Below, piece by piece: positions 4,766 to 63,177 of a DNA stretch of 64,000 nucleotides. The position numbers were made by a program, and so were the translations under genes. Numbering within the stretch: position 1 is the first letter of the stretch; every line of letters begins with the position of its first letter. This stretch comes from Pratylenchus scribneri (taxonomy: Eukaryota > Nematoda > Chromadorea > Rhabditida > Pratylenchidae): the NCBI GenBank assembly GCA_030063045.1, contig JAQSEB010000164.1:372001-436000 (forward strand), in the 5' to 3' direction. The notes below the pieces were generated by a model, which was not told where the DNA came from, ran no database searches, and saw only the letters and a list, made by a program, of their open reading frames with translations.

Positions 4766-7700
4766 ATGACAAAAATTAAAACGGTCTTCATTTTTCTCGC
4801 TTTAATTTGTATTTATTTGGCAATAAGAACAATTGCTTCTGATATCACCAATAATGAATTCCATGAACGGATTCACAAAATATTGGTAAAAGGACAGAAT
4901 CAAATTAAAGGCGAAATTCAAACGTCAATAAGAAAACAACTCCATATCCCTAATGAAATTCAACAAGAAAAAGACTTGAATAAATGGCTAGGTGAAAAAG
5001 AAGAAATTACGGCGAATATGGAAAGAAGAAATTTAATTGGTAAGGGAGGAAGGAATATAAATGGATTATTGAAATTGGTAAATTTTTGGCAAAAAACTAA
5101 ATTTATTATAATATATTTATACAATGTATAATTACACAATAATGAAAAAAATCAGAGCTTTATTTTGAATTTTTTTATTTTTATTATTTGACCGAATCAA
5201 CCCAAGGTTTATTTTTCTATCAAATTTTTAAAAATTTTTGTGAAAATTAATTTAAATAATAATTCTTCATTTTTAAGAATAAAAGTAATTATATAATACA
5301 AATGAAATTTATAAATAATTAAATATTCTTATGTTCTTTATTCATCATTTCCAAATTAATCGAGGTATAAAATTAAAAAATTTCATATTTTTCAATTTTT
5401 AAAGATTTACAATTGCATCCTATTCGTCAAAAAAGACAAGCGTTTCATGCAAAGGCTAAACTTTGGCCACGCACCATTAATTATGAGATCAATTTTCGTG
5501 AGTTTTAAATATGGGATTAATTTTTAGACGTTTATATTAACAAAAAAAAAACAATAATTTATATCTTTTCCCATTCTTCATATTGTTTTTGCCCTTCCAT
5601 TTTTTTCAAGAAAAAAAAAAGAAAGTTTAAAAACCAATTTTAATTGGATTTTATAAAAAAGTCACATTAAAATTTAAAAAAAAATATCATAAATATTAAT
5701 TCAATTAAAATTTATGTTGGTTTTTTTTTCATGTTCAAATTTTATATATAAATTAATTTTTGTTTCATCCAAAATTATAAAAATTTAATTATTTCTATTA
5801 TTAAAATTACCTAGCTGAACTAGAAAGTGACATTCTGACCGCAATAAAATATTGGGAAGATAATAGTTGCTTGACTTTTCGTGAAGATGCAAGCGCCAAA
5901 GAACGAATACGCATTTCAGAAGGTCATAAAAACTTATCAATGGTAGGCCGGTTGAAAGGAAATATTTGCGAAGTGACCCTCATGAGCATTAATTCGGTAA
6001 TGATAAATATTTCATAGATCCAAGATATCGTAAATGTTCTTTTAACTCTCCATGGTGAATTATTTTACAACCTTTTCAAAATGTGCGGAATTATTAGAAA
6101 TGGGGAATTATTGGAGAGTAGGGAATTAAGAGAGCATTTACGGTAAAAATTACAGAATTTAATTTATCCACCATATTGATTCAGGAATTTCGTAGAATTT
6201 TACCCAGTTATTTATTAAATAAATTTATTAAAAAAGAATTCAATAGAAATACCATAGTTCCACTTTAAAAAGGGAAATATTTTTATTCATCGATTTTTGG
6301 GAAATACATTAAGTGGCAAAAAAACGAAAATGACGAAAATTATGACAATTTATCTTTATTAGAGACTCGCAAAACGTAAACCATTTGCCCAATTCATAAA
6401 TCTCGTCGATATGCCTCATTTGATAATAATTTGATAATTTTTTAATTTTATATGTACAAATAATGGAAAGTTCGTTTAAACGGTTTAATACCTTTAATTT
6501 TTGGTCAAATCGTGACAAATTAAAGATCGTTCAATCTATCTTGAAGAGATTTATCGATTGGGTAAAAATGTTTGAGATTCTAGGTTTACCCACTAAATCA
6601 CTTCAAACAATTATAATTTTTTAATCACATTAAAAAATTTATTGCCTTTTTCAATATTAATTTTTATTTTATAAGTGCAAATTTTTTAAAGGTTGGTGTA
6701 ATGATGCATGAAATTGGGCATGCTCTCGGCTTCACGCATAGTCACCAAAGGACGGACCGGGATGAATATTTGGAAGTGTATGAAAGTAAAATTAGTGAGG
6801 ATTGGAAAAAAGAATATATAATAAACCCTGATATTCGATTACACTCTGATGTACCATATGATCCGGCTTCAATTATGAGCTATGCTGGATAGTAAATCAT
6901 AATAATTTATATATTATGGACAATTTTTTGAAATTGGTCATTTCTGGAATTGTTCAGGCTTTTACTGAGCAATTTTTGAATCTCTTTTTCAAAATAATCA
7001 GTACTAGATTATCTTATTTTTTCAAATATTTTGGATTTTAGTTTCTTCAATATAAAATTAATTTTAAAAATATTTGTATTGTCTTTGTTTATTATAGAAT
7101 ATTTATTTTTAAAAAAGTTAAACAAATATAATTTCTATTATTTATTTTGTTAAAAATCCGGATTAAGAAATTAAAATGGTTATTTTATACTTGAAAGCTC
7201 TCTCAATCAATTTTGGAAAAAAATTCTTCATATATTTGGGAATTGAACACATTTGGGAAAATGGGCCATCAATCGATTTTCCCTTATTAGATGCTGACTA
7301 TTTTTTTAATAAAAGAAACTTGAATATTATTTTTATTTAAAGTTCAAATTTTTGTAGGTAAAAATTCCAGAGCTTTTTAAATATTAAATACAACGAAAAT
7401 AGAATAAGGATAAAAAGGGTAAATGGTTGTTTTATCGAATTTATAAACAAATCAGTGTGGCAAATGCTGAAAACTATCATGATAAATAATAAAAAATGGA
7501 GTCTGGATTCTTTTCACAATTCATTAAATAATTAAAAATTACTATTTCTATAGCATGGGTCGGCGTAAGGATCGCATTCAAGTGATGGTTACCAAGGATG
7601 CCAGATATAAACGAGCACTGGGCCAACGCATACATCCATCATTTTGTGACCTTCTATTGCTGAACATTTATTATGATTGTGAAGGTACTTTTAAAAAAAT

Positions 7701-10010
7701 TTTTAGTTTGTATTTTTTAAAATATATCCAATTTATTTTAAATTTTTTTATTCTGCAAAAATGCAATAAAATATTTTCAGATGTGTGTGAAAAATTCGAA
7801 ACAAAATGCCATTTGGGTGGTGGATTCCCAAATCCAAAGGATTGCACAAAATGTATTTGTCCCTCCGGATTTGGCGGAAATTCATGCAATAAGCCAGCCG
7901 GCACTTGTGGAAGTATACTTGAGGTAAATTATGTTGCGGCAAATATCGAAAAAATAATATTTAGATTGATTTAAATTCAAATTCTAAGCTTTATAGAAAT
8001 TTAATTAAGGTTCAATTCGATTCAGCAACGGTTTTATTAAAGTACCCTTCACACGTGAGGGCAAAGTACCCTAAAATTTAGACAAAACCGATCGATTTTG
8101 GTACCAATCGATCCCTCAGACCCTTGCGGTAGGCCCTTTCTTCCGGAATAATTTCGGTTTAGAACCTTACAGAAAAGTTACTGGCCAAAAACTGAATGAT
8201 TATTTAAAAGTTTTAATTTAACAAATTTAAACCTAAATTATGGAAAATTAAAATTACATATTTTAAAAATGCTTTAATTATGCTATTTTTTTATCACAAA
8301 TTAATTTTTTGGTCAGAAGAAATCAAAACAGGGAAATCAAAATCAATTGTAAAAATATGTATTTTTAGGCTACCACAGATATTAGATTATTTGCTGAATC
8401 AGTTGGAAACCATTATGAATATCATCCTCCGCCGAATTATCATCAAAGTACAATTGGAAGCCATGATCAATATTATCCTTCGCAATTTTATCATAATTAT
8501 CATCGACCTGCAAAAAGAATCAAAGGAATTTGGATGGGTGGAAATGCTCAATGTCATTGGCATATTCGTGCTAGATCCGGTCATAGCATAAAATTGACAG
8601 TGCATTCATTAACGGCAAGTTGTGATGAAACCTGTGATTATGGTTTTGCCGAGTTGAAAATCAAAAGAGATATGCGTCCAGCTGGCATTCGGTAAGCAAT
8701 CCTTTATCTCAAATCAATCAAAATTATCTCCTTTTTTATTCGTTACCATATTTGCAGACGAAACGATCTGGTACCGATAATGGCAAGATGCTGTGACATT
8801 GTTTATGGCATATTATTAAAACAGAAAATTAGTTATAAAATGGTATCAAATACATTGACCAATTGAATATTCACCGAGTTATGGCTAAAAAACCGTTGGT
8901 TTAATTAAAATTTTATTTTTATGTTTTTTTTGGCCATAATTCGGTGAATATTAACATTGGAAAATGTATTTGATATCATTTTGTAGCAAATTTTAAGCTT
9001 AATAATACGCCATAAATAATGCCACTACATCCTTGCAATTATCAGTACCAGTCCGTTTCTGCAAATGACGGATCTGAAAATGTCGGTTCGCCGAATTTTT
9101 ACCATTTTTATTTATAAGACGATTCCTAAATTGATAAATGATAAAAAATGTGGACTATTCTCAAATATCGCAAATGCCAAATAATTCTTTTTTTAAATTA
9201 AAATAATTAATTTTAATAGAAATAAAGAATAAAGTTTTAAATAAATTTTTGGAGATAAATTTTAAAGCAAAATTAAAATATTAACAAAAAAAAAATAAAA
9301 AAAATTACAAAGTGATTTGAAAAATAAAATATATTTTCAAAAATACAAAATGTTTTGGAAAATATAAATGCAAAATATTTGGAAAAAAAATATTTAGTGA
9401 AAAAAAAAACAAAATGTTTGGAAAAAAAACATAAAATATTTCGAAAGACAAAAACACAAAATATTTGGATAGACAAAAAATTAAAAAAAAACAATTATTA
9501 AACTAATTAATATTTAATTATAATAATAATTTATAATTAAATGAAAATTAAAATTAGCAATTGTTTTATTTATGAATCACCCATATTATCATCAATTAGA
9601 AATTTTTCGCCCCATTTTAATTTTTTTAAAAGAATTTGCTGTCAAGAAGATTTGGATTCAAATGGTCAAATGATTTTGGAAAGTGAAACCAACCTGATGG
9701 TAATTAGCATTTATGGCAATGTTCGTTTGGAATTCGATTATCATTCATTTGGTTGCAAAAATTAGATTTAAAAAATAAAATAATAATTTAAGGAAACGGA
9801 GATTCTTCGTCCTCCAGTATAAGATGGCCCGAAGATGAATCAAAATCAATTCGTTCATTAATGACAAAGTCAATTCGGACATCGCAGAAAGAACCAAAGT
9901 CAATTCGAGTGCAACATGTAGAATCAATTCGACCACAGAAAAAATCAGAATCAATTCGAACACAAGGAAAATTAAAGTCAATACGATCAAGACAGGGAGA
10001 AATAAAATGA
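4766..10010 (+). CDS. Secreted astacin metalloprotease with EGF, CUB and C-terminal SIR tail
   Basis: Modelled exons: 4766-5039, 5405-5497, 5815-5996, 6692-6891, 7554-7684, 7781-7923, 8369-8691, 9558-9751, 9793-10010; total 1758 nt (585 aa), all phases consistent. Order: signal peptide (1-25), propeptide ending in a furin-like RQKR near residue 98, astacin (M12A) domain, EGF-like region (294-341), CUB domain (342-513), then a tail with seven Ser-Ile-Arg motifs. Zinc motif HEIGHALGFTH near residue 188 has all three His ligands and the general-base Glu; the Met-turn reads SIMSYAG and keeps Met and Tyr. The Glu normally following the third His is Ser. This is the usual nematode NAS architecture except for the SIR tail. 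Likely a secreted endoprotease; substrate unknown. Exon 1 is duplicated as exon 1 of the next gene. Confidence 0.85.
8751..9066. mobile_element. Inverted-repeat element (MITE) in an astacin intron
   Basis: The two halves are near reverse complements: TTTGCAGACGAAACG and CTGGTACCGATAAT on the left are mirrored by ATTATCAGTACCAG and CGTTTCTGCAAAT on the right. It lies inside the 8692-9557 intron. Its left end contains TTTGCAG, which imitates a splice acceptor and could mislead gene prediction. Confidence 0.65.
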
Positions 10011-10319
10011 TTCCGACCACAGTAGTAAAAAACAAAATATATTGCAATGGTGAACAATTAAAATCAAATTGACCATTCATTCCTTTTTTAAGATATTACA
10101 TATTACTCCGTTTTATGAATTATTTTTTCATTAATCGTCGTTTCTTTCTCGTCGTTTTTCCTTTTTTATTTTTCATTCAAATTTAATTCCGTTTTAATTA
10201 TTCTGCTTTAATTATTTCATTTAAATATTATTGTTTTAATTATAATTTATTTCCACTTTCCATTAATTTGTTAAAAATAAAATTTTCTATTTATTGATAA
10301 AATATTTCAATTGTCATTA

Positions 10320-11149: not shown

Positions 11150-11405
11150 TAAATGATATCAAAAATGAAATATTCTTATTATCATATAAAACTATGAAAA
11201 AATAAAATGGAAAAACATTTTGGCTGAATTATATTTTTGAATAGACGTAAATATTTAAGGCGTAATTATAAAACTATAAATATAGAAAATAATCCATTGA
11301 AAAGGCCGAAAATAAAATGGAGAATGAATGAATTTGGTATCATATTAGTTTTTTCATTTTTAAATAAATCCACTTTCAAATTTTTGTATAAATTTAACAA
11401 AAAAA
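11150..11405 (+). promoter_or_regulatory. Upstream region of gene A, copy of the astacin promoter block
   Basis: Contains three TATA-like AAAACTAT(A/G)AA elements and the 'AAATAAATCCACTTTCAAAT' block about 45 bp before the ATG. It matches 2745-2995 by eye and continues into a homologous first exon, so promoter and leader exon were duplicated together. Transcription start not determinable. Confidence 0.5.
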
Positions 11406-14400
11406 ATGACAAAAAATAAAATGGTTTTCATTTTATTCGCTTTAATTTGCATTTATGTGGCAAAGAGCGCACTTGCTATGGATAATACAAATGATGAATT
11501 TCAAAAACGGATTCATAAAATGTCGATAAGAGAACAAAATCAAATTAGAGCTGAAAATCAAGCGTCAATAAGAAGACAAAACAATATTACTCCTAAAATT
11601 GAATCCGACAAAGACTTATGGCTGGATGAACAAGAACAACTTACAGCGAAAATGGCACAAAGAAATCTAATTGGTATAGAAGGGGGGAAATAATTGAATG
11701 GCTAAAATTTATAAATTTTTGGAAAAGTCGTAATTTATTATTATATATTTTTCAAATTTAATTATTTCACAATAATTAATTGTAAAATTCAAGGCAATAT
11801 TTTTAATAATTATATTTTGTTATTACTAAAAAATAATAAGCAAAATTTTGCATTTTTTTGAATAAAAATGAATTAATTTTTAAAGAAAATAAGAGCTATT
11901 TGAATTTTTTTTCTTAATAAAAATAGCGTGATTATATTTTGTAAATTATTGTTCATAATTTTTCAACAAAAATGATTTTTTCATAAAATTGAAAATTATA
12001 AATTTTATTAGTATCAAGCATCAGGCCTATTGGAGAAAATGTGCCCATACATCCGGAAAATCCTACTTTTTTGAAATTATCAGAAGATTCTTCTATCAGA
12101 ACCAGTTTTAAAAAGGGATCCATCAAAGTGGATGCTGAAAATATTCCAATTGATTCAATTAGGAAAATTGGAGAAAATATACCTTCGGGAGGCACAATTA
12201 GTTTCTCAATTAGAAGTAACAAAGATAAACCAAATGCTGAAAAAAATAAATCTGCTGAAGAATTTCATGATGAGCAAATTTGTACAATTGATATAGCGAA
12301 AAGAGGGCGTAAGTTAAAAATTTGAATGAAAGTAAAAATTTTAAAAATGATTTATTTAAATGAATTTTCAAATAATTTAATTCTTTTTTTAGATTTATTG
12401 AAAAAATTTATTTCAAATTAATATTTTAACTGGTTTTAAAATTTATAGTTTTTTACAGCAATTTATCAAAATGGTTATCGCTTCCATTTTGAATCGCTTT
12501 ATCAATTAATTGGGTAATAGTTGACTTTAGTCCACACCTTTTTTGAAAAAAAAATTTTATTTTATTTTTCGCTAAAAACATGTATTTTTGGGTTTTCGAT
12601 GATGAGGAATCCGAATTTGAAATTTATTTTTCATTAACTTTATTGGTTGAACCAGTATAGATTTACAAATCGGTTTCAAAAACTTTGTTATTTTGGGACA
12701 TATTATATATCATTCGACGTGTTTTGATGAGCTGATCACGAATCTGTAATCCGTTTTGCATAAAACCTAAAAATAAAAAAAATTGGCCATTTAAAATTTC
12801 GTAAGATGTTTAGGTGCACGCATGACTAAAATGGTAATACCTTTTTTGCTTTTATTATGCTAAACAAATAGAAGATTCAAGCTTAGCTCATCGAGGCGCA
12901 TCGAATGAGCTATATTTGATGTAAAAATTTTTCACAAAAATTAACATTTTTTAATTACAGGGCCCCCTAAAACTTCACATGTTGTTAGTAAAAGCATTCG
13001 AAAAAAAATTCCTAAAGAAAATTTGCCAGAAATAAATATGGAAGAAAGCAGTGACAACGAATCTGTGCAAGAAATTCCTGCCATGCCTTCCCATGTACAG
13101 CCAAGGATAAGGGATAATCAAGGATTAAATTATGATGATGAATATTACTTCAAGGCATTGCCGCTCAGAGAAATGGATAAAGAATTAGCCAATCCACATG
13201 GATGGTTAGGAAATTTTGTGATCAATGCATATTTGCATTTGATAACCCGAGACAGGGACGATGTGAGATTTGTACCGGGCGAAATTATCACAACTTTTTG
13301 GCAAAAAGAGGTGATTAGGCCTGATTGGGTGCAACATCAAATTGAACAAGAAAGCAGCATCCAAGAAGTCCAATTTTGGTTAATTCCAGCAAATTTGTAC
13401 GGGAAACATTGGGCATTGACAGTTTTTGAAGTGGACAAATATGTGGTCTTTTGCGATTCGTTAAATAAGGGCCAAGATACAGCTGAAAATATGGCATTCA
13501 AAACAGCCCTCTTTAAATTTTTTATAAATTTTTATGCTAAATTTAAGATGCATTTGAATATGCATCGAGTTTTATGGATAAATAGAGCAGATATTCCAAT
13601 TCAAACCAATTCATGGGATTGTGGGGTATTTCTTTTGATGTACGCAGAACAAATTATAATGAATGGTGATATTTCGACACCTTTTCACTTCACTCAAGAT
13701 GCAATACCAGAATGCCGAGCCAAAATTTATCGAGAATTATTGGAACAGCGTTTGTAAGATTATAAAAGATAATTGAATGAAAATGATTAATCAAATTGAA
13801 TTTTTTTTAAATTAATATGTTGGGTCTTCGGTATAATAACCAATAAGAAAGAGGCAAATATTTATATTAATTATTTATTTATTTTATTAAATGTATGAAT
13901 GGAAATAAGATCGAAATAAATTAGTGTATAAATTGGACAATCTTAGTTGGGATTAACTAAAAATGACAAAGCAAACCATGGGAATTTGGGAAAGGATAAA
14001 ATGTCATTTGTGAAAGGTGGGAAAATCAATATGTCAATGTTCTTTCGAAATGCATCCTATTTCCCATTTGATCATATCCCGAATCCAGGGCTGCCAGAAT
14101 GTACCGCTACAGGGGGGGGGGGGGCACCCCCTTTTGTGCCCCCCGAGCCGAGTTGCCCCCCAAATGCCCCCTTTTGATTTTTTGTTTTCCCCAAATGGAT
14201 CATTTTTAGTTAAAATTTTTCGCTTCGCGACCATCTTTTGGTCTAATTTTTCGCTGCGCGACCATTATTGGCAAAAATTTGCGCATTTTTGGCACTTTTA
14301 AAAATGCCCCCCAAAATGCCCCCTTTTTTACCGAAAATGCCCCTAAATGCCCCTTTTTTTCCCGAAATGCCCACCCCCTAACTGAAAAACCATCTGGCAG

Positions 14401-17400
14401 CCTTGTCCCGAATATAATGCTATATTTTTATTAAAATTATTTAGTCCTGAAGAGATAACAACAACTGCTGTTTCAATTCGTCCTACGCAAATAGCCCAAA
14501 GAATGGAAAAAGAACAATTTATCAGAGAAATGGGAGAAACTCAATCAATCAGAGCAATGAAAGAAATTCAATCAATTAAACCTCTTAAACAAAAATATGA
14601 ATCGAAAAGAGCAATGGAAATAGATGAAAACCAATCTCATGAATCAATGGGATCTGGAATTAGCGGTTCAATTCGGCCTTTGGATAAATTGCAAAATGAA
14701 TCGATAAGAAAAAAGACAAAAATGGAAAGTGGAATAATTCAAGCATCAATCAGACCAACTGTGGAAATTCAAAGTGGCCCAATCAGTCAAACTTGGGTAT
14801 TGCCTGAATCAATCAGACCAACTGGGGAAATTCAAAGTGGCCCAATCAGTCAAACTTGGGTATTGCCTGAATCAATCAGACCAACTGATGAAATTCAAAG
14901 TGGCCCAATCAGTCAAACTTGGGTATTGCCTGAATCAATCAGACCAACTGATGAAATTCAAAGTAGCCCAATCAGTCAAACTTGGGTATTGCCTGAATCA
15001 ATCAGACCAACTGATGAAATTCAAAGTGGCCCAATCAGTCAAACTTGGGTATTGCCTGAATCAATCAGACCAACTGATGAAATTCAAAGTAGCCCAATCA
15101 GTCAAACTTGGGTATTGCCTGAATCAATCAGAAAAACTGGGGAAATTCAAAGTAGCCTAGTCAATCGTACTGGGGAAATGTCTGGATCAATCAGATCAAC
15201 CGGAAAAAAGCATGGATCAATTGGTCAGTAACATAAATTATGTCATTTTTCATATTATATTTCTCTCATTATCGCAGTATATATTACAGATAATCAAGCA
15301 GATTACTGAGCATTGAGCAATAATTTAATATTTAAAATTTTTCAGCAGCAAAATATGTAAAAAATGAATATGGAGGATACTTTCTTGTTCATTATGGATA
15401 CATTTATTTGAATGCCAAAAATTTTGTTTCTAGAAGTAAAAGTCGCGGATTATGGATGTGTGAAGAAAGAGAAACAGCAAATTGTATGGGAGAAGTGAAA
15501 GTGGAAAATAATAATATAATCGTCAGAAAACAGCATAATAATCATCCACTTTCCAAAAAACTAAAAGGATTGCTGACATATGCACATTTTAAAGGTACAA
15601 TTAAAATTAGTATATTATAAGATTTGGTATTGAAAATAAGAAATTTGACTATATAAACATATTGATTGCGAATGAATATTTCGATATTAACATTATCTTA
15701 GTAACACCAACACCTTATTTTACTAAATTGTTTAAAAATTTTGAATCGATTTGCAAAAATTGAGAAATAACACCCAAATCATTATTAAATCTAATTTATT
15801 AGTCGTCAAGAGAAATAATAATGGCTAAAATTAAATTGAAAATTTGATATATTATATATATTATTTTATTTAATAGATTCAATTACGGAGGAGAATTATC
15901 AAATTTTGCCGGATGGTAAAAGAATGTATGTGGATGGATTCGTCTATTTTAGAGAATTGAACACCAATTACTCAAGTCGTAATAGAATTTATCTTGTTTG
16001 TGCAGAAAGTTCCACAGGATGCCGAGGCAGAGCGATTATCGAAAATGAACAAATTGAAGTTACTATTCCACATACTCATAAGGGCATTGAACACGGTAAT
16101 ACAAAAATTTAATAGGATAAAATTTTTATTTATTAGTTATAAAAAAACCTTTAAAAATTCTTTAATTATTAATTGTGTATCAAATTATTAAGGAAAAACT
16201 TGAAAAATTGTCAATTTGTATAAAAAAATTTGGAAAGTATCCAATTTTTTTTTATCTAAAATTTCAATGCAATGCAAACTATTTTTCAAAAATGAAAGAT
16301 TTTCAGACAGTTACGATTTAATTTCGGACATTTCCAATCCAATCCATTATATATGTTACAAGCAAAAGTGAAAATATATGTATTAGCGGCATAACTGAAA
16401 TTCACAATCAAGCAAAACTGAATTTACCTAGGTAAAACTGAAATTTCTATCACGACAATCAAGTGTCAAGCGCAAAATTTTCTATGATGCTGCAGAAAGC
16501 AGCGATATCAATTAGGACCGAAGGTTCAAGCCCCGGTCCTAATTCCTCAGTGGCGGAAGCTGCTAAATCGCTAGGGAAGTGAAAAAAACTTTCTAGAGAA
16601 TTTTTTGCGCAGCGGCAAAATTTTCTTTCCATCGACTGAGGGAAATTCAACGCTAACCCACAACGCAAATTCTTTATTGCAATTTGCGATTTATTCGGAC
16701 CATTCTTGCTTTGTGCATTAAATAATCTGCAATGCAGCAGAAAGCAATGATATCAATTGGGACCGAAATTTCATATATTATTCCTCAAATAGTTAGAGAA
16801 ATAATTTAATTAAAATGCTCATAATTTTCAATTAATAAATTAGGTGAATTAAAAAAAATATTAATTGCTTAGGTGCTGGGAATTTGGTACAATATGCAAA
16901 ACATGAATTCGGTGGTTATTATATGCTTAATGATGGCTTTGTTTATGAAAAGCAAGCAAATGAAGAATGGATTTGCGAGGAGCATAAAAAAGATCCACCT
17001 TGCTTGGCAAAGGCAATTGTCGACAGAAATAATCGTATCATTTACACAAGCGGGGAGCATAACCATGAAAGGTACTCAAATAGTACTTGTATATAGTTTT
17101 CATGATATCAGAATTTTGTTAATGATATTATAGTAAAAAAGGTATCATTAAAATGATAGGATTTTGATAGAGGCAAATATCACTATTATATTATATCATT
17201 ATCACTATAATTATCAGAATAATTATCATATTTTATTTAACATTTTCAATAATAAAAAATTGTCTAGCAAATAGTAAATTTCATTTCAATTTGAAATAGA
17301 TAAGATAAAATAATTATTCATTAGTATAAATAATTTATGGGAATTTTTTTACGTAGCATTCGGTGTGATTGGGAGAAATTTATTTTTATGGATTTTAAAT

Positions 17401-18816: not shown

Positions 18817-18892
18817 TTTTATGATAAATTAAATTTGTTATAAAATTTTTCTATTTATATGTTATTTTTAATCTATGAAGATGATAAAAAAA

Positions 18893-36300: not shown

Positions 36301-38114
36301 TATTTAATCGTAGTGTATCTATTTATTAATTTAAAAAGATTTACAAATTAAATCGAAATATTTAGTAAATAAAAAATTTTCAAAAATTTTTTCCATTAAA
36401 TTAAATTTTTATAAATTGAAAACTCCAGAACTACAATGTGAAATTCCAAAATTTGAAAGTTATATTACCTTAGAACCATTGAAATTAAATGCATGTTTTT
36501 TTTCATGATTTATTAATATTGAATTAAAAATTTTTTTGATCCAAATAACATAAAAATTTCATCGCTCAAACTATAATTATTTTTGTGTTTTATAAAATTT
36601 TTACATAATTCTTGCCATTTCCAATTTACTTATTATAAGTCGAAATTATTGGAATGCTAGTAAACAACTTTTATTGTATTATCACAAACGTACAAATTTT
36701 TATAATAATACTAAATAGATTAATCTTTAGTTAAATAAATTAATTAAGTTAAAATTGGCTTCGTTTAAATTCAAAATATTTTCAATTATCAATTACATAT
36801 ATAAGGTCGATATAAAATTAATGATTGATTAAGTAAGAGAAAGCGGAACAATTTAATAAAATAAAGCATGGAATTATTAAAGTGAAAAATTTTTTAACAA
36901 AAAGATAATAATTATCCATATTTATAATTTTATAATAAAGAAATTTAATTAAAAGTAATAAAAATATTAAGTCAAAATTTGAAAAAGGGCAAAATTAAAA
37001 ATTTTGAATTAGACAAAAAAAATCTATAATAGATATGGATTAAAGTATAGGGTTTGCAATCGGAATCATTGTTAGCCAAAAAATTGACTATCCTATTTTC
37101 GATTTTTTCCCAACAATCAGTCATTGGGCGTGATATTATAGAGATAAAATTGAAATTCTTTAAATTACGAGTTAAATTTTTCAAATTTTTTAAACATAAA
37201 TTAATATTTTCCAATATTTTTTTAGAATTTTCTATCTATGTTTAGTATTGACTATTTTAATTTTAAATTTTTATTTGCAAAGATACTGGAGAATTAGCGG
37301 AATATGCAAAACATGATTTTGGTGGTTATTACATGCTTAATGATGGGTTTGTTTATGAAAGAAAAGAAGGAAATGAATGGGCATGCGAGGAGAGAGAAAA
37401 GGATCCACCATGTCTTGCAAAAGCGGAAGTGGATAGTAATAATCATATAATATTTAGAAGCGAACATAACCACGAAAGGTATTCAAATATTCACATTTTT
37501 ATAGACAAAAAACATTTTAACATAAAATTTTTATTAAATCATTCTCGCTCTTTTTATTTTTGACGTCAAATGCGCGGTCTTATCCCAATGAAAGATGTGC
37601 TGCCAAATGGATGGGATGAACTTTCAGCCGGAAATATTTTAAATGCACAACAAGACAAACCAAAACCAATTACACATGATGGCTACACATATTATCTGTC
37701 GACGAAAAATAGAAATAGCGAAATTCTAACATACAGATGCAAATACAATCAGTATAGGTGAGTTAGAAAATTTCAGCATTTATTTCTGAAATTTCAGTAT
37801 ATTAATCGAAGGTTCACTAAATTTTAAATAATAAAAGTAATTTTAATATATATTAAAATTTTACAATGATGAGTTACTAAGGAAAATATTTTTATATCTT
37901 TTTAAATTTTTCTGTATTTAATGGTTTTTAATCGTTTAAATAAATATTCTAATCAAAATCAAAAGCGAATATTAATAGAATATTAAATAATTTTAAACTC
38001 CTTTTTCACATTTGAATCAGATCAAATGATGAAATTTGTTATAGTCGAGCCTATATCAAGGATGGTTTAATAGATGTTTGGACTCAGCATAATCACAAAA
38101 GAAACAAATATTAA
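30331..38114 (+). CDS. Gene B: secreted SIR/FLYWCH/Ulp1 protease with five FLYWCH fingers
   Basis: Modelled exons: 30331-30766, 31890-31976, 32377-32583, 32802-33070, 33487-33655, 34137-34845, 34936-35363, 35492-35749, 36022-36237, 37283-37478, 37563-37757, 38021-38114; 3264 nt (1087 aa), all phases consistent. Order: signal peptide (1-25), six SIRPIGE repeats, FLYWCH-1 (175-243), a region with two related about 30-residue helical repeats ending ENQ, Ulp1 protease (about 430-625), SIR region, FLYWCH-2 to -5 (769-1087). Catalytic residues are intact: His (GNHWAL), Asp (FCDSL), Gln and Cys (RQMNGWDCGVF). It is a paralogue of gene A from the 'FLKLSE' segment onward but has a different leader and the extra FLYWCH. 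The apparent stop after the Ulp1 exon lies in the donor GTGAGA. The junction at 37563 lacks AG, as in gene A. Likely a secreted deSUMOylase-like enzyme; the substrate is not inferable. Confidence 0.78.
30430..30645 (+). repeat. 36-bp coding repeat (SIRPIGEVVPTP unit)
   Basis: Six tandem 36-bp units, each encoding a 12-residue SIRPIGE(V/I/D/N)VPTP motif. One unit has Met in place of Arg and one has Ser in place of Pro. The unit is also present once at the start of gene A exon 2, which shows that gene A derives from a gene B-like ancestor that lost the array. Confidence 0.95.
33085..33450. mobile_element. Inverted-repeat MITE in gene B intron 4
   Basis: Left end 'TTGGTCACAATGGTCGTGTTC' and a GTTCATGTTCGTGTT stretch are mirrored at the right end by AACACGAACACTCTCATTGTG. 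It fills most of the 33071-33486 intron. The 70-residue open frame within it has no similarity to the gene and is not real. Confidence 0.65.
33842..33861. repeat. (CAGT) microsatellite
   Basis: Five perfect CAGT units in gene B intron 5. Confidence 0.9.
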
Positions 38115-38278
38115 GAAGAATGAAAAATATGGTGAAATTTTCATATTTATATGTTTCTTTTAATGTATTTGCATATTCGAAAGATAAAGCAATTTGAATT
38201 CATAATTTAACAGTTGGAATAAAAGTTCACTATCGCACTTATGGTACCTTTTTGAAACATTGATTTGTTTTTATTATT

Positions 38279-38682
38279 TATATGTTTCTTGGCTCATCTA
38301 AGTTTCTAGGCCGTTTTGTGGAGATTGATGAAACAATAGTCGTAAAGCGCAAATATGGGGTTGGCCGAATTCTGCAAAAAGAAGAAGTTTGGCTGTTCGG
38401 GGGTGTGAAGCGCGACACGATTGGGAGAATTGCTTTCTTGTGCCAGTGTTGTCCCGCACCCGGAACTGCCTCATTCCACTCATTCAAGATCACATTCTTC
38501 CCGGGACCACTATTTTGTCAGACGAGTGGCGGGCTTACCGATCGATTCCAAATTTGCCGCAGAATTATGCCCACTTGACAGTTAACCACAGCCAGAATTT
38601 AATCAATCCAAACAATCCCCAAGCGCATACGCAAAATGTGGAGTCGATGTGGAAGAAAATGAAGAGAAATTTCAAGCAATAA
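38279..38682 (+). pseudogene. Merlin-type (IS1595-related) DDE transposase remnant
   Basis: The conceptual product contains VEIDET, KRKYGVGR, WLFGGVKRD, then after a frameshift near 38440-38455 LIPLIQDHILPGTTILSDEW, VNHS and HTQNVESMWK. These are the D, D and E motifs and conserved blocks of the ISXO2/IS1595-like DDE domain of eukaryotic Merlin elements. The N-terminal region is missing, so this is a dead fragment. It lies about 165 bp downstream of gene B; terminal repeats were not found. Confidence 0.85.
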
Positions 38683-39242: not shown

Positions 39243-42200
39243 TCAATGTCTTATAATTTCAGCCGAATATTGCAGTGAAGAATTAGCTGGATCGCCATTA
39301 GGAGAGTGTGTATTTTCATTATATTTTTCCTGCATTTTTTTATATTTTTCTTTCTGTCCAGGTCGATATTTCATTGGAGGGGGAATTGGAACCACATTTT
39401 GTATTTGTTGATTTTTTTGTTCTGTTCTTTTAATTAATTCTTCCATTTTTCTTCGTTGATCTCTTATACTTTGTGTCTTGTAATCAGACATTTTAGGAAA
39501 TTGCGGAATTGGAACGCCTGCATTTTCATTTATCCGCAGTGATTTTGAACTTTGATCAGGAGGAGGAAGTGGAAGAATGTAACCTGAAAAAAATTATTTT
39601 ATTTTATTTTTTTTTCAATTAGTTTTTTCCCACTTGGACCCTTAAATCGATTTTTTGCCATTGGTGCCATAGAAATTTGATTAAATTGCCTCTCCAAATA
39701 TTTGGTCATCTCTCCAAAGAAATTGACATTTTTTTGATTGGAAGAAATTTTATTGAAATATCTTTCTATTAATTCTTTGGCCGAAGGCCTCTCTTCAGGT
39801 TTCCATTTTAAGCAGTTCTTAAAAATATGTAATCAAAAAAATTAATTAAAATAAAATTAAATTTACTTTCAATATGCCCGTTATCTGTGGTGAATAAACA
39901 TTTTCCATTTCTAATTCAATCAAAAATTTTTCCAAGTCAATTTCAAATGCCTCATTTAATTTTTTATTATTATTTAGATGATTGGTTGCATACGTTGTGA
40001 AAAAATCCATAGGATTTTTTATTTCTGTTTTTGAAGAAAATGAAAACAAATCCAATATGATCATCCCAAAAGACCAAATATCCGCTTTTTCAGAAATCTA
40101 AAAAATAAATTTTTAATAATAAATTAATTAAAATTTGATAATTTAATTTAATTCTTACCATAATTTCATTGCTAACTTTCGTAATTTTTTTCTGACCAGG
40201 TGCCATTATAGTATAAAACTTTGAATAAATTTTTGGTTCATTAATTTCGGGTGCCGTAAATTGTGGAGTTGTTATCAAATCTCGCACATCCACTTTCTTT
40301 TTTTGCCCATTTTCTAATTTTATGGCACTACCAAAATCAATTAATTTCAAATAAATTTCATTATTTTTGCTGGGCATTCTCAAAAAATTGTTGGTTTTAA
40401 GATCCAGATGGACAATATCTTGGAGAATGAATTAAAAGAATAAATTTAAAAAAATATTTAATATTTTTTTCAACTTACTTTTCTGATGCATTTCATCAAT
40501 TCCAATTAAAATTTGCTTCAAAACTTTTAGCATTATTTCTTTTCTATTATCTTCAGTTTGTTCTTCCCAATAATCTCGAAAATCTTGACCAATTTCCATT
40601 ACAATTATTGTCCCTTTCTCTTCAGCTACTGTATGGAATTCATCATTAGATGAAATTTTATAATAATGATGACTGTACGAAATTAATTAAAATTAACTTT
40701 TTTATTCAATATTATTATAAAATTAATAAAATTTTGAAAAATGGCAAAATATTGATGAAATTAGTAAAAATCGTAAAATTATATCAAAAATCTTAATAAA
40801 TATAATTAATTTTTTTTTTTTTGAAATTTAAATAACTTTAGAATCATTTCAACAATGATATATATTATATTGTCAAATTCTTTCAAAAAATTTCAAAATC
40901 TATTAAAAAAGATCAAAAAAAAATTTTTTCTAAATTATAAAAATATTCCATATTTTTTTAAAAATTTAATAAAGTTCTTCAAAAATATTGAAAATAATTT
41001 ACATTTGAACATTAATTTATTTGTAAGTTAATGCCTATGTAAAATATACAAATATATTTTTTAAAATATTTTTAATAAATAAATAGACTGAAATTATATT
41101 TCAAAAATAATAAAAATACTGATAAAAAAATAAATTATTTTTGTTTTTATTTTACAACTTACAGAGGGCCATAACCAATAATGTGATGTGCCCCTCTGAA
41201 TGATGCAACCATTTTAAATTCTTCATTAAGTGAAATTTCGTGTTCATTTTCTTTGGCCAATTTGATAGCCACACATTCATGTGGCCCATTTTCTGGATAA
41301 GAAATTGCAGTTGCATGGAAAACCTTATAATCATAAAAATTGATAACATGGAATAATTTCTTTAAAATTTTAAATATTTTAATATTCAAAATTTTTTTTG
41401 ATTTTTATTTATACAATTACTATTTAATAATGTCACCTCGGCTATTGTACCCTCATTTAAAAATGTTTTACTGATCAAATATCTGGCCGGTTTTTCTTCG
41501 CATGTTTTTGGATGTGTCCACTGAAAATAGGCCAAAACCATATCTTGCAACTTATCATTTCCACATGGACAATTTTGTTCTGGATCATAATTTAAATGAT
41601 TGGCAAATGATTCAATTTTGTTGTATTCCGCATTTTTAGCATAGAGTTCAATTCGGGGATGTATATGGACTTTATAGCAATGAGTAGAAAAGGCAAATGA
41701 ATTATTGATTTTTTTTTGTTTGTATTTCTTTATTTTTTTTCAATTTTGATGGATATTAATTTTTTTTATAAAATTATGTTTTTTAACAGCAGTTTAAAAA
41801 TATTGCCGGTTTAGAGATATAACCCTAAAATCAGTTTCAAAAAGTGATCTTTTTCAATTTATATAGTGGGTAAAATTTTTTCCTTTAAATTTTCGAATTT
41901 TGGGACCGGAGACAGGAATCATCATCAGGATCTTTGCTATTGAATTATATAATACATTGCAAAATACTCAAAATGAAGGGTATTTTTGCTCGATATTTTG
42001 TGTCCATGTAGGCCCGTTTGAATCTTTGGCCGACTCGGGAAGAGGGGGGGGGGGTGGGGTATTTATAAAAAGGACGCGGGTTTGAATCTTAAAAAAAAAA
42101 CAGCAATTAATTTTTCTAGATTTTTAAAAGTCGCATTCAATTTTGAGAAAAAATAAATTTAATTTATATCAAATTGCAATTATAGGCAATGAAGTTATTA

Positions 42201-43399
42201 AATAAAATTGGCATAGTTTTATTAATTTTTAAAGCATATCGATATTTAAATTTACCACTATTTGAATCACAGCTTTGCCTTATAGAAAAAGATGAAGTTT
42301 GAGTATGAATGGAATTGCTCGATGAAATGCCAGGCCGAATTGATCCAATTTGCTGCGCTATTGTGCCACCACCAGCATGTGCCGATGACGATGTGCCTGG
42401 CATTGAAACCGAATAACTGCCTTTTTCATTTTGGCCATGTTCAAGCCGAATCGATTTACTGGAAGAAACATCATAGGAAGGTGACATTGTTTGTTGTGTA
42501 CGAATTGAACCACTGAGAGTTAGAGGATTCTCCCCTTTATGATGTTGGGCAGAAATGTGATGAATTGAATTACAAGTTCCTGTTCCGATTTTATGAGGAA
42601 TTGAAGCGTTGCCAGCTGAATGTTGCACTAATTGATGAAATGAACTAGTGCCATTTTCTGGGCGATTTGACGTAATGCCACGATGGTATTCTGGGCAAAT
42701 AGACATAGTGCCATATACTGGCAGAATGGACTTAATGACAGCTGGTTGATCTTGGCGATTTGAAATAGTGCCTGCAGATTGATCTTGACGAATTGACCTA
42801 GTGCCAGCTGGTTTATCTGGGCGAATAGACATAGTGCCATGCTCTGGACTATTTGACATACTGCCAGCTGTTTGATCAGGGCGAATAGATCTAGTGCCAT
42901 ATTCTAGGCGATTTGACATTGTGCCAGAAGTGTCAACTGGTTGATCTGGACGAATAGACCGAGTGCCATATTCTTGGTGATTTGACATTGTGCCAGAATT
43001 GTCAACTGGTTGATCTGGACGAATAGACCCAGTGCCATATTCTGACTGAATTGATTTATTGACAGCTGGTTGATCTGAGCGAATTGAAATAGTGCCATAT
43101 TCTAGGCGATTTGAGTTAGTGCCAGCTGGTCGTTGTTCTACATGGCGAATTGATATAGTGCCATGCCTTGGAAAATTGCCAGTATATTCTGGAAGAATTG
43201 AAGCGGTGCCCTGTCCTGGAAAAGTGCCAGCTGATTGTTCTATTTGACGAATTGAACCACCGTCGGATTCCTTTATTAATATATTTTGATATTGACATTA
43301 TTAAATAGAAAAAATTACCTTTGTTCCATGGCATTGATTAGGCAGAATAATGCAAAATAAGAAGAATTTCGTGAAAAATAATTTAATATAGCAATTCAT
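39243..43399 (-). CDS. Gene D: secreted SIR-repeat protein kinase
   Basis: Minus-strand exons: 43399-43319, 43270-42256, 41669-41437, 41323-41163, 40672-40479, 40418-40159, 40097-39867, 39817-39634, 39583-39243; 2700 nt (899 aa), all phases consistent. Order: signal peptide with a strongly hydrophobic core (1-24), SIR-rich low-complexity region (28-365), a short domain with a CPC pair, a eukaryotic protein kinase domain (about 440-745), and a Pro/Gln/Lys-rich tail with one more SIR. Kinase motifs are complete: VAIK lysine, HLDLKTNN catalytic loop (Leu in place of the usual Arg), IDFGSA metal-binding loop, TAPEI. It therefore looks catalytically competent. The specificity class is not clear. 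Exons 1-2 are paralogous to those of gene E, while exons 3-9 are unrelated. A kinase behind a secretion signal suggests action outside the cell or in a host. Confidence 0.8.
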
Positions 43400-44685
43400 T
43401 TTATTAATTAATAAATAGAAATTTTACCTAAAATTTAAATTTTTTAATGATATTTAATTTATTAATTATAATTTCTAGCTAAAAATTAATCTATATCCAA
43501 TTGGAATTAATGGATAAAATATTCAGAATTAATATTATTTAATCCTCTTAATAAATAAAAATAAAATTGGAAAGACAATTTTAAGGAAGCCGAAGATTCG
43601 AATACTTATAAGAAAGGCCTATAAAAATACAAAAATATATCCAAAATGTAAATTCTGTTTTATTCTGCTTTAAATTATAATAAAACTATTATTGCAGAGT
43701 GCAGATCAGAATTATTCATCTATTTTAATAATCAAAATTCGTTGCTAAAATTTTTTGCAAATATTATATTCCAATTTTCATTTTTAGTTTGCAATATATC
43801 CAGTCAGCAGTTTTAATTTACAATTTTGAGAATACTTTTATATTTTTGTATTTTTATAGTTGATCTTTTCTTTCACTTTTAAAAATTTAAAAAAAAATAT
43901 TTATCTCTTTTCAGTAAAAAAAATATTTAATACGATTTTTGGAAATAAAGGGAAAAAAAGTAAAATTTTCTAGATATACGAATTTTGTAGAGATCGGCGG
44001 ACGGTAGGGATCCAGACCGTTGTTTTTCGGGATCCCAAATCGGGATTGATTCGGTAATCCCGAACGGAATCCCGACCAAAGATTTTAGATTTTTCGGTAT
44101 TGATAAAAATGATTTTTTAGGTTTTTTTTTCGTGCCTTCAAATAAAATAAAGAATTTTTTTATGTCATTTCATCCATCTTTTTACTTTTTCTTATCATTT
44201 TTTTTTCGTTTTCAGAAAATAAATTATATAATTTAAAATTCCTGAATTGTTGATTTCATTTTTATTTCATATTTATTTTTTTTTCAAATAAATTTAAAGC
44301 GAATTAATTTACAGAGACATCGTAAATATTAAAATTAAATAATAATACCCAGCAATAGCAATATGTATATGGAAGATTGGCTTTTTCAAAAAAACTTTCA
44401 AAAACCGAAGCCGAGTGTCTGGAATGCAAAAAAACACTGAAAATTTCTGAAGGAAGTTATCAGATTTAAGAACTCATTAGAACAAGATTCATTCGGGTAC
44501 AGAATGTGTTAAAAAAATTTGCTGAATTTAGATGAAGAAGGTGGGATAGGGGAAAGGAGGGATATTTCCCAAATTTTGCAAACTCTTGCTGACGATGAAA
44601 ATGTAGGAGAAAATGGCGCATAAACAATTCTGAAAATACATTTTTGTTATTGAATTTTTATAGTCAATCTTCCAATTCAAATAAA
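43400..44685. other. AT-rich spacer upstream of gene D
   Basis: No gene recognised. It contains TATA-like 'cctataaaaatacaaaaatata' near 43617 that resembles the block near 49541 upstream of gene E, as expected if promoter, leader and SIR exon were duplicated together. A GC-richer patch near 43990-44090 repeats 'cgggatcccaaatcggga'-like motifs. Confidence 0.5.
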
Positions 44686-45190: not shown

Positions 45191-45546
45191 AGTGGCAAAT
45201 TAAATTTTTGAGAATATTTTTATTAATAAATATCAGTATGTTTATGTGAAAGGTAATTATAAATCATAAAACATTAAATAATTTAAATGAATTTCATTAT
45301 ATTGAATTAATTTTTCAAACACTAAAAGGCAACAAATTTTTTGCTCTTTTAGGGGGCACCTAGACTTATAAACGGATCTAAAATTAATTATCACACACTC
45401 ACTTATTATGAATCAGATAAAGTTTTCCTCAATATATTAATCATATTATCCCATAAATTAATTGATTTTGATGAATGAATGAATTCAATTAACAAGGAAT
45501 GATATTTATATAAATAATACTCATTGTAACAATAATTCAATGTTTG

Positions 45547-48500
45547 TTATCCAATTTTAATTCGTTTCAATTCAATATGTCCTAACAATTTTGGGTTTTC
45601 CAAATTTCCATTTTCCATCATTTCCTCCTCCAAACTTTTCCGCTTACTCTCGAATATTTCCTTCACCTTCTTTTTCCAATCTTCTCGTTCTTTTGCCGCA
45701 TTTTCAATTGGATATTTTTTCCCAGTAGCATAAAATTCAAACATTGCACTTTTTTCGGTAATTTTCACTGCAATAAATGTGCCTCCCTCAAAAACGGTGC
45801 CGCCATCCTCTTCCTCTTCCTTCTCTTCTTTTTTATTTTTCTTCTTTTCATCCTTCATTTCTTTTTTTTCCTTCTCATCATGTTGTTGTCTTCCCTTCCT
45901 CTTTTGCACTCCATTTGGATAGCTAAAGGCAAAATATTTACATAATTTCATTCAAACAAATAAAAAGACTGTATGACAATTGGGAACCCGTAAATTGGGG
46001 ATGGAACGGTCTATCGTCGAAGGTCGTAAACTGTGTGGCTAATTTATATGCTATTTTATTAGTCATAAAATTAACTACAAATTGATATGAAAAGAATTGG
46101 TCAATGTTAATTATTCATCGGGTTAAGGCCAAAAAACAGCCAGAAACACAATTTTTATTAAAACAATAGTTTTATGGCCTAACTCAATGAATAATCAATA
46201 ATCACGAGTTCTTTCAAAATCATTTTGCTAATTTAATGCCGAATAAAATGGCACATAAATTAGCCTGGCAGCATTACGAACTTTGACGTTAGACCATTCC
46301 GTCAACAATTGCCGCATCCCCAATAGTCGTAACACCTAAATAAAAAATCCTCTCACCAAAATTTATCATCAATTTGTTGTCTCATATAGCTAACATGCTT
46401 CTCATCCCAGCAATCCTCCAATCTGGATCCACCTCCAGACACAATTTGATGAACCATCGGTCCTACTACCTCAACCACTTCATCCACTTCCATTTTTATT
46501 TTCTCATTTAATCGCTTAATATACTTCAAATTGTGTTCATGTCCAGCAATATATGCGGTTACCTGAATTTGCATAAAAATTCGCACATCCCCCAAAAGGA
46601 GTGGGACGGTTCGTGGCGAGGCCGATTCGTGGCGTAAGCTTATGGCTAGGTGCCTAAATGGTCTGGAATGTTTTTTATATCATTGGATAGAGCAAAAAAT
46701 TCTCTATTAGCTCATATAAAAATCATTATGAAACATATTTTCACATTTTTTAAAAATCAAAAACCTTCAAAATTGACACAATTTTGCCCACTTTTTTTTC
46801 AATAGCTCATAATTTTCTCAATTTTGAATAATTTAAAAAGATTTCTATATCATTCGATAGATAATGCTTTGCTCTATCAAATAAATATAAAAAAAATTCA
46901 ATATGGTTTGGATTAAGATGAGTTATAAAGCAAAAACTGGTCCGTCACGAACCGGCCGGCCACGAAACGTTGCGTACTCTTCCCCTAAATACTAAACAAA
47001 CATTGAATTTAAAGAACAATTCTTGAAGTTTTTCCGCACATAAAAACGATCGTTTCCCTTTGGTCACATAAAGTGGATAATGGCCCAGCACAAAAAGGAA
47101 ATCTGGTTTCCTTTATTTGCGAATTTATTTAAAAATTCATTCAAATTCACACCCGCCAGAACTAACCAATTTTCGTTCACAAATGTCAATTCTCTTTCCA
47201 ACCAGTCCATATTCACTTTTTGTGCCAATGTTTTCTCATTGCAAATTATCTTATGTCTAAAATCCTTTCTCGATGATCCACACAACAAAAAAGTGTCAAT
47301 CATCACAAAAATCGCATTCACCAATTTGCCATTTTTCCCTTCAAATTGATAATGGACAATATATTGTTCGGCGGGAAAATTCCTAAAAAATAATTCTCAA
47401 AATAATCAAATTTGATAATTTACCAAATATTTTTATGACCATTTGGTTCGTAGCCAATTTGGGCTTTGGCCCTTTTCCTCGCTTCCTCAAATAATTCGGT
47501 TTTGTTCTGTTCATCATTTTTACCCTTTTGATTCAAAATTTCTTTCTCTTTCGGCACTTTATAATCATTGTTGCCATTAATTGAATAAAATGGAATTGCC
47601 AAATGATTTGATTTTATGTAAACTTTCATGAAAATCTGACCAATTTTAAGGGAATTTTTAAAATGGAATTCAATTAACCTCATTGAATCGTTGTTCCCTA
47701 TCATCTTCACATATTCCTGAATCGTAGAAATTATCGCCCAAATTCAAGACAAAATCTAATTCAAAAGCCGAATGCTCATCCTTTTTTTGTTGTGCATATT
47801 TTTGAATGCCCATTGCCACCTTCCATTGGCCCGGTGTTGCAATATGTCCAATTAAATGGTCTTTTTCATTTTTGTATTCATAGCCTAAAGAAAAACTAAT
47901 ATATGGAATTAATAAAATAAAAACACCTCCAATGTCCCCCAAAAGAATAAAATTGATTTCATCCTTCTTTTCAATTCCACATTCCATCGTCCAATATTTC
48001 TGCATTATTTTAATATTTTTATGCACTTTTTTGCCATTTTCATTAATTTCTACTCTCAATTCTACCTCCTCTTCTAATAATTTTCTTTTACATCCTTTTT
48101 CAAATTTGCGAGGATAATCATTTGTTTTAACTTAAAAATAATTATAATTTTTTACTCAAATTGCACCTATCGGTAATGGAATCAAATTTTAAATAAAATT
48201 CCATTAAATTTCATGGATATAATATAGATGACGTCCCGTGAAATTTTTATGTAAAACACGTTTTAACTTTTAATCAATCTCTTATGACTTCTAATATACG
48301 AATTAGGCATTGGCAAGGTGCAGAAATGTCATAAAAATGCAAGATTGATTTAAAAACCGGTCTTACATAAAAAATTTCACGGGGAGTCATCTATACTACA
48401 GCCAATTTTATCAATTTTGAAAGCTAAAAATTTTTCTTTGAAAATTTAATTTACCTCTATTTGAATCATTGCTTTGCCTTATAGAAGACAAAGAAAGTGG

Positions 48501-49231
48501 AGTAGGAATGGCACGGCTTATTGAAATGCTAGGCCGAATTGATCCAATTTGCTGCGCTATTATGCCATCACCAGCATGTGCCGATGATGATGTCCTTGAC
48601 TTTTCATGATGGCCATGTTCAAGCCGAATCGATTTGCTCGGAGAAGCATCATAAGAAGGTGAAATTTTTTGTTGTGTACGAATTGAACCACCAGCAGTTA
48701 GAGGATCCTCTCTATGGTGTCTGACATAATTGGGACGAATCATTTCAGTGCCTGTTTGTTGATGAATAATTGAGCTAGTTCCAGCTACTTGTTCTCTTTT
48801 ACGAATTGAAGCGTTCTCAACTGGTTGTTGTTCTGCTTGTCGAATTGACATTGTGCCAGCTGGTTGTTGTTCTGCTGGACGAATTTTCCTTGTTCCATCT
48901 GGTTGTTGTTCTGCTTGTCGAATTGACATTGTGCCAGCTGGTTGTTGTTCTGCTGGACGAATTGACCTTGTTCCAGCTGGTTGTTGTTCTGCTGGACGAA
49001 TTGACCTTGTGCCAGCTGGTTGTTGTTCTGCTGGACGAATTGAACCGGTGGCAGTCATTCGTTGTTCTCTTTGAGTAATTGATCCGTCACCGGATTCCTA
49101 TTATTAATATTTGATATTGAGTATTGAAATGACAATATTGAATAAAAAACCTTTGCTCCATGGCATTGAGTAGAGAGAGAAAAGTAAAATAAGATGAAGA
49201 CCGTAAAAAATAGCTTTATTTTGCTATTCAT
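45547..49231 (-). CDS. Gene E: secreted SIR-repeat purple acid phosphatase-like protein
   Basis: Minus-strand exons: 49231-49151, 49097-48455, 48130-47927, 47884-47679, 47635-47424, 47382-47153, 47102-47002, 46562-46357, 45922-45547; 2259 nt (752 aa), phases consistent. Order: signal peptide (1-25), SIR repeats (28-241), metallophosphoesterase of the tartrate-resistant acid phosphatase type (about 300-700) interrupted by a Lys/Glu-rich insert. Metal motifs: GDIGG, LGDNFYDSG, VLGHYP and AGHEHN are present. The GNHD motif reads GNND, so the catalytic His is replaced while the metal-binding Asn stays. Activity may be reduced or changed. Exons 1-2 are paralogous to gene D. The 50-bp intron at 47103-47152 must be spliced to obtain GHYP. 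Purple acid phosphatases act on phosphomonoesters and phosphoproteins at acid pH. Confidence 0.78.
45965..46340. mobile_element. MITE in gene E intron 8
   Basis: Inverted halves: AATTGGGGATGGAACGGTCT and GGCTAATTTATATGC on the left, CACATAAATTAGCC and AGACCATTCCGTC with GCATCCCCAATAGT on the right. No coding capacity. Confidence 0.7.
46591..46987. mobile_element. MITE in gene E intron 7
   Basis: Left CCCCAAAAGGAGTGGGACGG and TTCGTGGC repeats; right GTCACGAACCGGCCGGCCAC and GCGTACTCTTCCCCT. The ends are inverted and imperfect. It fills nearly all of the 46563-47001 intron. Confidence 0.65.
48225..48394. mobile_element. Short MITE with TA-type ends in gene E intron 2
   Basis: TAGATGACGTCCCGTGAAAT on the left and ATTTCACGGGGAGTCATCTA on the right, with TA on both flanks. 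A Tc1/mariner-type non-autonomous element of about 170 bp is likely. Confidence 0.75.
48828..49060 (-). repeat. 39-bp coding repeat (SIRPAEQQPAGT unit)
   Basis: Six units of 39 bp in gene E exon 2 encoding SIR(P/Q)AEQQP(A/D/V) and variants. Gene D has longer, more diverged units at the same position, so the two arrays expanded independently after the duplication. Confidence 0.92.
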
Positions 49232-63139: not shown

Positions 63140-63177
63140 CGCACAGCTCCTTTGTTCGTTTTTGTAGCGGCACCACT

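Follow-up and report, generated by a model that had tools for sequence, protein, structure and literature searches.

Common predicted 5′ cassettes and Ser-Ile-Arg arrays on unrelated enzymes in a gene cluster of the nematode Pratylenchus scribneri

The dockerins of cellulosomes are a single type of small docking module that is carried by many unrelated secreted enzymes and binds a common partner. XopD and other C48 effectors of plant-associated bacteria are SUMO proteases that are delivered to the plant and are joined to a DNA-binding part. Tandem repeats reportedly occur in secreted proteins of plant-associated organisms, as told in a review of repeat-containing effectors. Here, we describe a gene cluster of ~470 kb on one contig (JAQSEB010000164.1, hereafter C164) of Pratylenchus scribneri, a root-lesion nematode of crops, in which unrelated enzymes bear arrays of the tripeptide Ser-Ile-Arg (SIR). 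The analysis is centred on a window of 64,000 nucleotides (C164:372001-436000), in which an astacin, Ulp1-FLYWCH proteins, a kinase and a metallophosphatase have SIR-array genes, and a FLYWCH protein with such an array is encoded outside the window. On balance, we favour the reading that these enzymes acquired common 5′ cassettes through exon shuffling, and that the SIR array is a multivalent docking tag.

As in XopD, a SUMO-protease domain is joined to a DNA-binding-type part in the predicted Ulp1-FLYWCH proteins, which differ in being eukaryotic, in having a predicted signal peptide instead of type III secretion, and in their FLYWCH fingers and SIR arrays. The likeness to dockerins lies in the presence of SIR on unrelated enzymes, where it would have a docking role, but the dockerin is a folded calcium-binding domain, whereas the SIR array is linear. 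In the pea aphid KQY/KHI genes, a common secretory-signal cassette stands on divergent mature parts, with later duplication (PMC7495047). The present cluster also has a 5′ cassette, predicted to be secretory, on different mature parts. The aphid mature parts are miniature exons (15 bp or less), whereas the SIR exons measure about 210-1020 bp in the window, and the SIR cassette, of which promoter DNA and an array of motifs are part, precedes known enzyme domains. The HYP genes of cyst nematodes share with the cluster short motifs that are variable in number and order (PMC11228951). They are described there as single-gene loci with allelic variation (PMC11228951), in contrast to the many SIR paralogues on one contig, which have catalytic bodies and one conserved tripeptide. 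No such SIR family was found described among the titles listed in our literature searches, which are weak evidence of novelty, as most subscription journals and preprints lay outside their scope.

A preliminary description of this DNA had claimed a clustered set of unrelated enzymes with a common SIR module, which is borne out here in a cluster larger than it had proposed. The six-frame count of SIR in the window is 121, compared with a mean of 43.5 and a maximum of 62 in null first-order Markov sequences, while the other orders of the S, I and R residues have 34-68 six-frame occurrences. Arrays, defined as at least three clustered SIR, number 11 in the window and 18 in C164:1-200000, against none in 30 and none in 10 null sequences, respectively, and no other tripeptide is clustered as often as SIR in either region. 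Control loci elsewhere (18 loci, 66 kb pooled) contain 42 scattered SIR and no array. Because the arrays far exceed both the null and the controls, the SIR repeats are no accident of composition, and chance or base composition is ruled out as their source. The repeat lengths of 12, 13, 17 and 21 residues that had been reported are all present, at 30430-30645, 48821-49043, 54116-54370 and 14745-15200, respectively, although the 17-residue array lies outside the region 4766-49231 in which they had been placed.

The codons of the arrays indicate that the tripeptide is conserved as protein. The 270 clustered SIR are encoded by 47 different 9-mers, with serines of both the TCN and AGY types and arginines of both codon families. 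In eight non-overlapping array pairs, hand-picked from a larger pair list with each array used once, the changed SIR codons comprise 20 nonsynonymous and 37 synonymous cases, compared with 117 and 18 for the changed S, I or R codons outside the motif (Fisher P 2.5e-12). In all listed pairs, SIR codons have 335 synonymous and 253 nonsynonymous changes, while the figures for spacers are 529 and 2556. Because the alignment of the pairs was made on these same sequences, it somewhat favours SIR; this bias is unlikely to cause the conservation, because the difference is large and the control uses the same residues. Judged from these codon comparisons, the tripeptide SIR is under purifying selection and the spacers are not. 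Of 234 SIR spacings, none is below 8 residues, while random placement gives a mean of 68 such short spacings and a minimum of 50. Among the 270 SIR, the most frequent neighbours are T, at -2 in 94 cases, P, at +1 in 88, and G, at +3 in 78. SIR thus fits a putative short linear motif that requires about 8 residues of room. Disorder of the arrays is only leaned towards, because the charge-hydropathy scores of the SIR exons are mixed (5/10 below zero). Protein searches with two SIR exons gave no relatives among the best 7986 candidates scored in one and the 15 candidates in the other.

The clearest example of a common cassette is provided by the kinase and phosphatase genes, which are 6 kb apart on the minus strand. 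The kinase gene has an upstream region at 43466-43885, a leader B exon at 43319-43399 that ends in phase 0, a SIR exon at 42256-43270 that ends G/GTAAAT (the slash marks the exon border) in phase 1, and kinase exons at 39650-41669, with VAIK, HLDLKTNN, DFG and APE in the reading frame, which we take to be kinase motifs. In the phosphatase gene, the corresponding upstream region is at 49383-49795, recognized by DNA identity, the leader B exon at 49151-49231, by DNA identity and splice phase, and the SIR exon, with 13-residue units, at 48455-49097, also ending G/GTAAAT in phase 1; the metallophosphatase exons (45900-48130) were assigned by a paralogue match and motifs. The DNA of the two genes is 75% identical over 435 bp upstream, 76% over 210 bp in the leader region and 81% over 291 bp at the end of the SIR exon, where the likeness includes non-repeat residues (SIRTQQ, SPSYD, AQQIGSIRP), and it extends 11-12 bp beyond the predicted exon ends. 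The kinase exon begins with two bases after the G/GTAAAT donor, and the same is seen in the phosphatase gene and in a fusion of RNase H1 type; a kinase gene on contig C152 has the same split, after an upstream exon that ends G/GTAAAA.

The end of the cassette B exon has seven matches, all on C164. One copy, at C164:20 kb, adjoins FLYWCH exons downstream. Another is followed by an RNase H1 N-terminal (Cauli_VI) domain at C164:472900-473247 (PF01693, E 1.6e-9), a predicted fusion read from the exon end and its flank; this domain has five relatives, on C9, C16, C22 (two) and C181. The flank of the copy at C164:447490 has no Pfam domain and no recognized partner, and more copies of the exon end are at C164:234572 and 252103. 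Exon shuffling is suggested because the common DNA ends near exon borders.

Leader A is likewise found before different enzymes. It has 25 matches, and the next exon within 6 kb downstream encodes Ulp1 in 13 cases (two of which are pieces at one site), astacin in at least 6, and neither in 6; as the astacin matches are the best 150 of 383 candidates, the true number of astacin partners may be higher. In 6 of the 7 genes read (three astacin and three Ulp1), the 150 bp that precede the ATG share 73-91% identity. SIR arrays are present as the common denominator that had been suggested, but not alone, since promoter-leader cassettes are common as well. Placement by tblastn in C164:1-200000 and the window shows three recurrent gene grammars: leader A or C, with or without RYYR, followed by Ulp1, SIR and at most three FLYWCH; leader A, astacin, EGF, CUB and SIR; and leader B, SIR and then kinase, phosphatase or FLYWCH. 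In the predicted exons, the SIR exons are compatible with the enzyme exons in splice phase.

Export is predicted because the leaders are hydrophobic, with 12-residue Kyte-Doolittle maxima of 2.29-3.18 in six leaders, one of them from C164:20 kb; among 582 ATG starts in the window, 57 reach 2.0 and 36 reach 2.3. By hydropathy, five of the six window genes have a signal-peptide-like N-terminus. Hydrophobic leaders had been claimed for all six enzymes, which holds with the exception of Ulp1 gene C, where a leader was not assigned. The proposed enzyme identities stand for the astacin (with CUB), the three C48/Ulp1 proteases and the kinase by domain matches, and for the phosphatase via a paralogue and DNA identity only. 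The paralogue matches PF00149 at 22.1 bits (cut-off 21.5), whereas scans of the window phosphatase exons gave no phosphatase family match and nothing over the cut-off in NCBIfam, and Protein Data Bank (PDB) searches with pieces of the phosphatase gave no matches. These exons are presumably purple-acid-phosphatase-like, judging by the motifs GDNFYDSG and GHEH; they have GNND in what we take to be the place of the usual GNHD, as do relatives without SIR arrays.

Relatives elsewhere in the genome have the enzymes without the arrays. The phosphatase copies of C59 and C23 show 80% DNA identity over 1.18 kb, starting 22 bp inside exon 2 of the window gene, and have hydrophobic leaders of their own and no SIR array. 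In the kinases on C147, C176 and C153, the leader is followed directly by the kinase, without SIR, and the Ulp1 genes on C21 and C16 form a second family, which has hydrophobic leaders but lacks SIR arrays; no leader was seen in the Ulp1 copy on C98. The body of the C152 kinase is 84-86% identical in DNA in four of five blocks and 76% in the fifth. The identity begins 5 bp before the exon-2 border, and the upstream exon is unrelated, containing 14 SIF as well as six near variants (SVF, TIF, SLF, SMF). From these comparisons, it seems that C164 is where predicted-secreted enzymes acquired the SIR cassette, and we infer that SIR was gained rather than lost.

In the mechanism that we propose, the cassette would comprise promoter-proximal DNA and a predicted signal peptide, together with a SIR array in several genes, and exon shuffling, mostly through phase-1 introns, would set it before ready-made enzymes. 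The predicted signal peptides would export the enzymes together, and the SIR array would dock these likely secreted enzymes at one common partner. Docking is suggested because the motif appears selected, the spacers are free, there is a minimum spacing and the arrays are multivalent. Delivery during parasitism would be expected from the organism; the manipulation of a host cell that had been suggested is conjectural. The Ulp1-FLYWCH proteins would couple a predicted SUMO-protease domain to DNA-binding-type zinc fingers. If this is true, a plant parasite could quickly build a suite of different secreted enzymes from one cassette, with expression, export and docking added to ready-made enzymes via phase-compatible introns. 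The SIR arrays and leaders A, B and C would then be a handle for collecting such proteins in other root-lesion nematodes, one array could serve as bait for the common partner, and a predicted secreted class of SUMO-protease/zinc-finger proteins could be tested directly in an animal that parasitizes plants. A further idea, which we regard as unlikely, is that the tripeptide is an exchangeable address, in which each locus stamps its own motif on an incoming enzyme and the motif decides the partner or compartment; in this way one kinase body would come to have arrays of SIR on C164 but of SIF on C152.

Several observations weigh against the reading of common cassettes with a docking tag. The joining of SIR and enzyme exons is predicted from the DNA. 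The position of SIR varies by gene (N-terminal, internal or C-terminal), and the astacin gene of the window is without the common proximal promoter (52-57% identity). Its donor between CUB and SIR is weak (GTTGCA), and this junction is in phase in the two copies found, of four looked for. Ulp1 gene C has Asn for the Asp of the triad, in addition to its unassigned leader. Further AGs of other phases are near the chosen acceptor in 13 of the 15 Ulp1-SIR cases. The relatives may instead have lost SIR, a less simple alternative. Inserts behind the leader are not unique to C164, because the C166 phosphatase (minus strand) carries, behind its leader and before the enzyme part, its own Ser-Phe-rich segment with one SIR; its leader-enzyme border seems to be a place that tolerates inserts. 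Copies of SIR genes on different contigs may be alleles, because 41.4% of BUSCOs are duplicated in the published assembly (PMC10138993). Finally, the motif CAANTGKC is present within 600 bp upstream of only 1 of 14 leaders (14 of 16 were examined). This is an effector-associated promoter motif of P. penetrans, found in 12 genes, or 40% of the new candidates (PMC7585316), and it is not strictly defining for effectors, because 40% of these candidates have it.

The absence of this gland-type motif at 13 of the 14 leaders also favours an explanation in which the cluster serves the nematode itself, in eggs, cuticle, reproduction or antimicrobial defence, and not parasitism, which we consider possible but doubtful. 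Against it, the P. penetrans gland study reports an astacin, other proteases and an acid phosphatase (PMC7585316), although these need not be SIR genes. Different explanations concern the arrays. They could be functionless slippage products, spread through tandem duplication in the cluster, and many indeed consist of almost identical DNA units in tandem; the synonymous share of changed codons (37/57 at SIR, 18/135 for S, I or R outside it), the spacing, which is never less than 8, and the number of different 9-mers that encode SIR make this highly improbable, and SIR as mere slippage was rejected on the codon-change and spacing data. SIR could also be a site of cleavage or modification, either with a precursor cut after Arg or with Ser phosphorylated by a basophilic kinase, whose acceptor pattern is [ST]-x-[RK]. 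The regular Arg, and the presence of arrays on a kinase and a phosphatase themselves, agree with this. However, Pro follows Arg in 88 of the 270 SIR, and Pro in this position disfavours trypsin-like cutting, so that a cut after SIR was rejected; a close relative of the kinase has SIF, with no Arg. Taken as a whole, a role as cleavage or modification site appears quite unlikely.

A comparably low probability is given to the SIR exons being separate genes, with a real stop after Ulp1 and no joining. In the cluster, 13 of the 15 copies of the Ulp1 exon end in TAA or TGA, and the copies without SIR arrays (C21, C16 and C98) end in TTGTAA in all three cases, because of which an old true stop is possible there. 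The apparent stop overlaps possible donors (TT/GTAAGA, GTGAGA, GTATGT). At the end of Ulp1, a phase-2 GT was identified by script in 11 of the 15 copies and is readable by eye in the other four, and all 15 have an AG of complementary phase before the SIR exon, usually in a T-rich TTTAG. Two of the 15 copies have TAT in place of the stop and keep the GT, and the database protein P0001, also without a stop there, reads on past HRL. The kinase, phosphatase and RNase H1-type fusions have no such stop. The last alternative, that MULE-type transposons left behind the Ulp1, FLYWCH and RYYR-CCHC genes as remnants, draws on FLYWCH near MULE transposase elsewhere in the genome (C7:139883/140576 and C121:497905/498598, among the best 150 of 232 candidates). 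None of the 39 transposase matches is on C164, C239, C247, C262, C125 or C148, nor on C218, C198, C211, C28 or C95, and on C109 the transposase match is 1.5 Mb from the SIR exon. Leaders, introns and fusions to kinase, phosphatase and astacin also fit such remnants poorly, and we hold this origin to be very unlikely; MULE membership of the SIR-Ulp1 genes was rejected, as transposase is not near. The FLYWCH exons may be of transposon origin.

The Ulp1 genes in the window had been described as three Ulp1-type proteases, and they are indeed three C48/Ulp1 genes, but genes A and B also have downstream FLYWCH exons. Gene A (plus strand) begins with a promoter-proximal stretch at 11237-11405, which by DNA identity is common to astacin genes elsewhere in the cluster. 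It is followed by a leader A exon at 11406-11673 (ending G/GTATAG, phase 1), an N-terminal SIR exon at 12012-12308 with both ends in phase 1, the Ulp1/C48 exon at 12961-13753 (ending TT/GTAAGA, phase 2), a SIR exon between Ulp1 and FLYWCH at 14445-15223, with 12 SIR in 21-residue units, and three FLYWCH exons at 15346-17075, assigned by domain matches. Gene B (plus strand) comprises a leader C and SIR exon with 12-residue units at 30316-30770, the Ulp1/C48 exon at 34130-34846, recognized by a domain match and catalytic residues, a SIR exon at 34937-35365, and FLYWCH exons at 35452-37563, the third of which is below the Pfam cut-off. The SIR exon of the gene B type has 37 genome matches including itself, 15 of them on C164 and the others on C239, C247, C262, C125, C28, C148, C218, C198, C109, C211 and C95. 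Gene C (minus strand) has its Ulp1/C48 exon, with an N-terminal SIR and Asn at the catalytic Asp position, at about 22978-23988, and a SIR exon downstream at 22254-22616, assigned by clustered SIR and phase. An open reading frame (ORF) with a strong hydrophobic leader, as read, is located at 28221-28598 (minus strand), 4 kb upstream of gene C.

All three window Ulp1 exons are above the cut-off for Pfam PF02902, and the catalytic His-Asp-Gln-Cys is kept in genes A and B. A profile of the Ulp1 alignment A2, from which two loci with a stop inside the given coordinates were left out, matches SENP1 (E 8e-15). A protein search with the Ulp1 exon found two database proteins only, P0001 and P0002. Broken Ulp1 pieces containing stops are present at 51828-53093 (plus strand).

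The astacin gene (plus strand) starts with a leader A exon at 4766-5039, with a signal-peptide-like and SIR-bearing region, which ends G/GTAAGG in phase 1. Its catalytic, EGF-like and CUB exons are at 5405-8695, with HExxHxxGxxH at about 6705-6740, which we read from the ORF as the astacin zinc motif, and a C-terminal SIR tail exon with 7 SIR is at 9793-10008. A second astacin-type gene, on the minus strand, has a SIR tail of 17-residue units at 54060-54515, and its CUB end is at about 54.6 kb.

Two further elements were seen in the window. A remnant of an IS1595/Merlin-type DDE transposase is located at 38332-38682 (plus strand). Long GC-rich ORFs (about 50%) occupy 55716-63193 on the minus strand, and presumably belong to a long terminal repeat (LTR) retroelement, which they resemble in gag-like zinc knuckles and a protease-like part.

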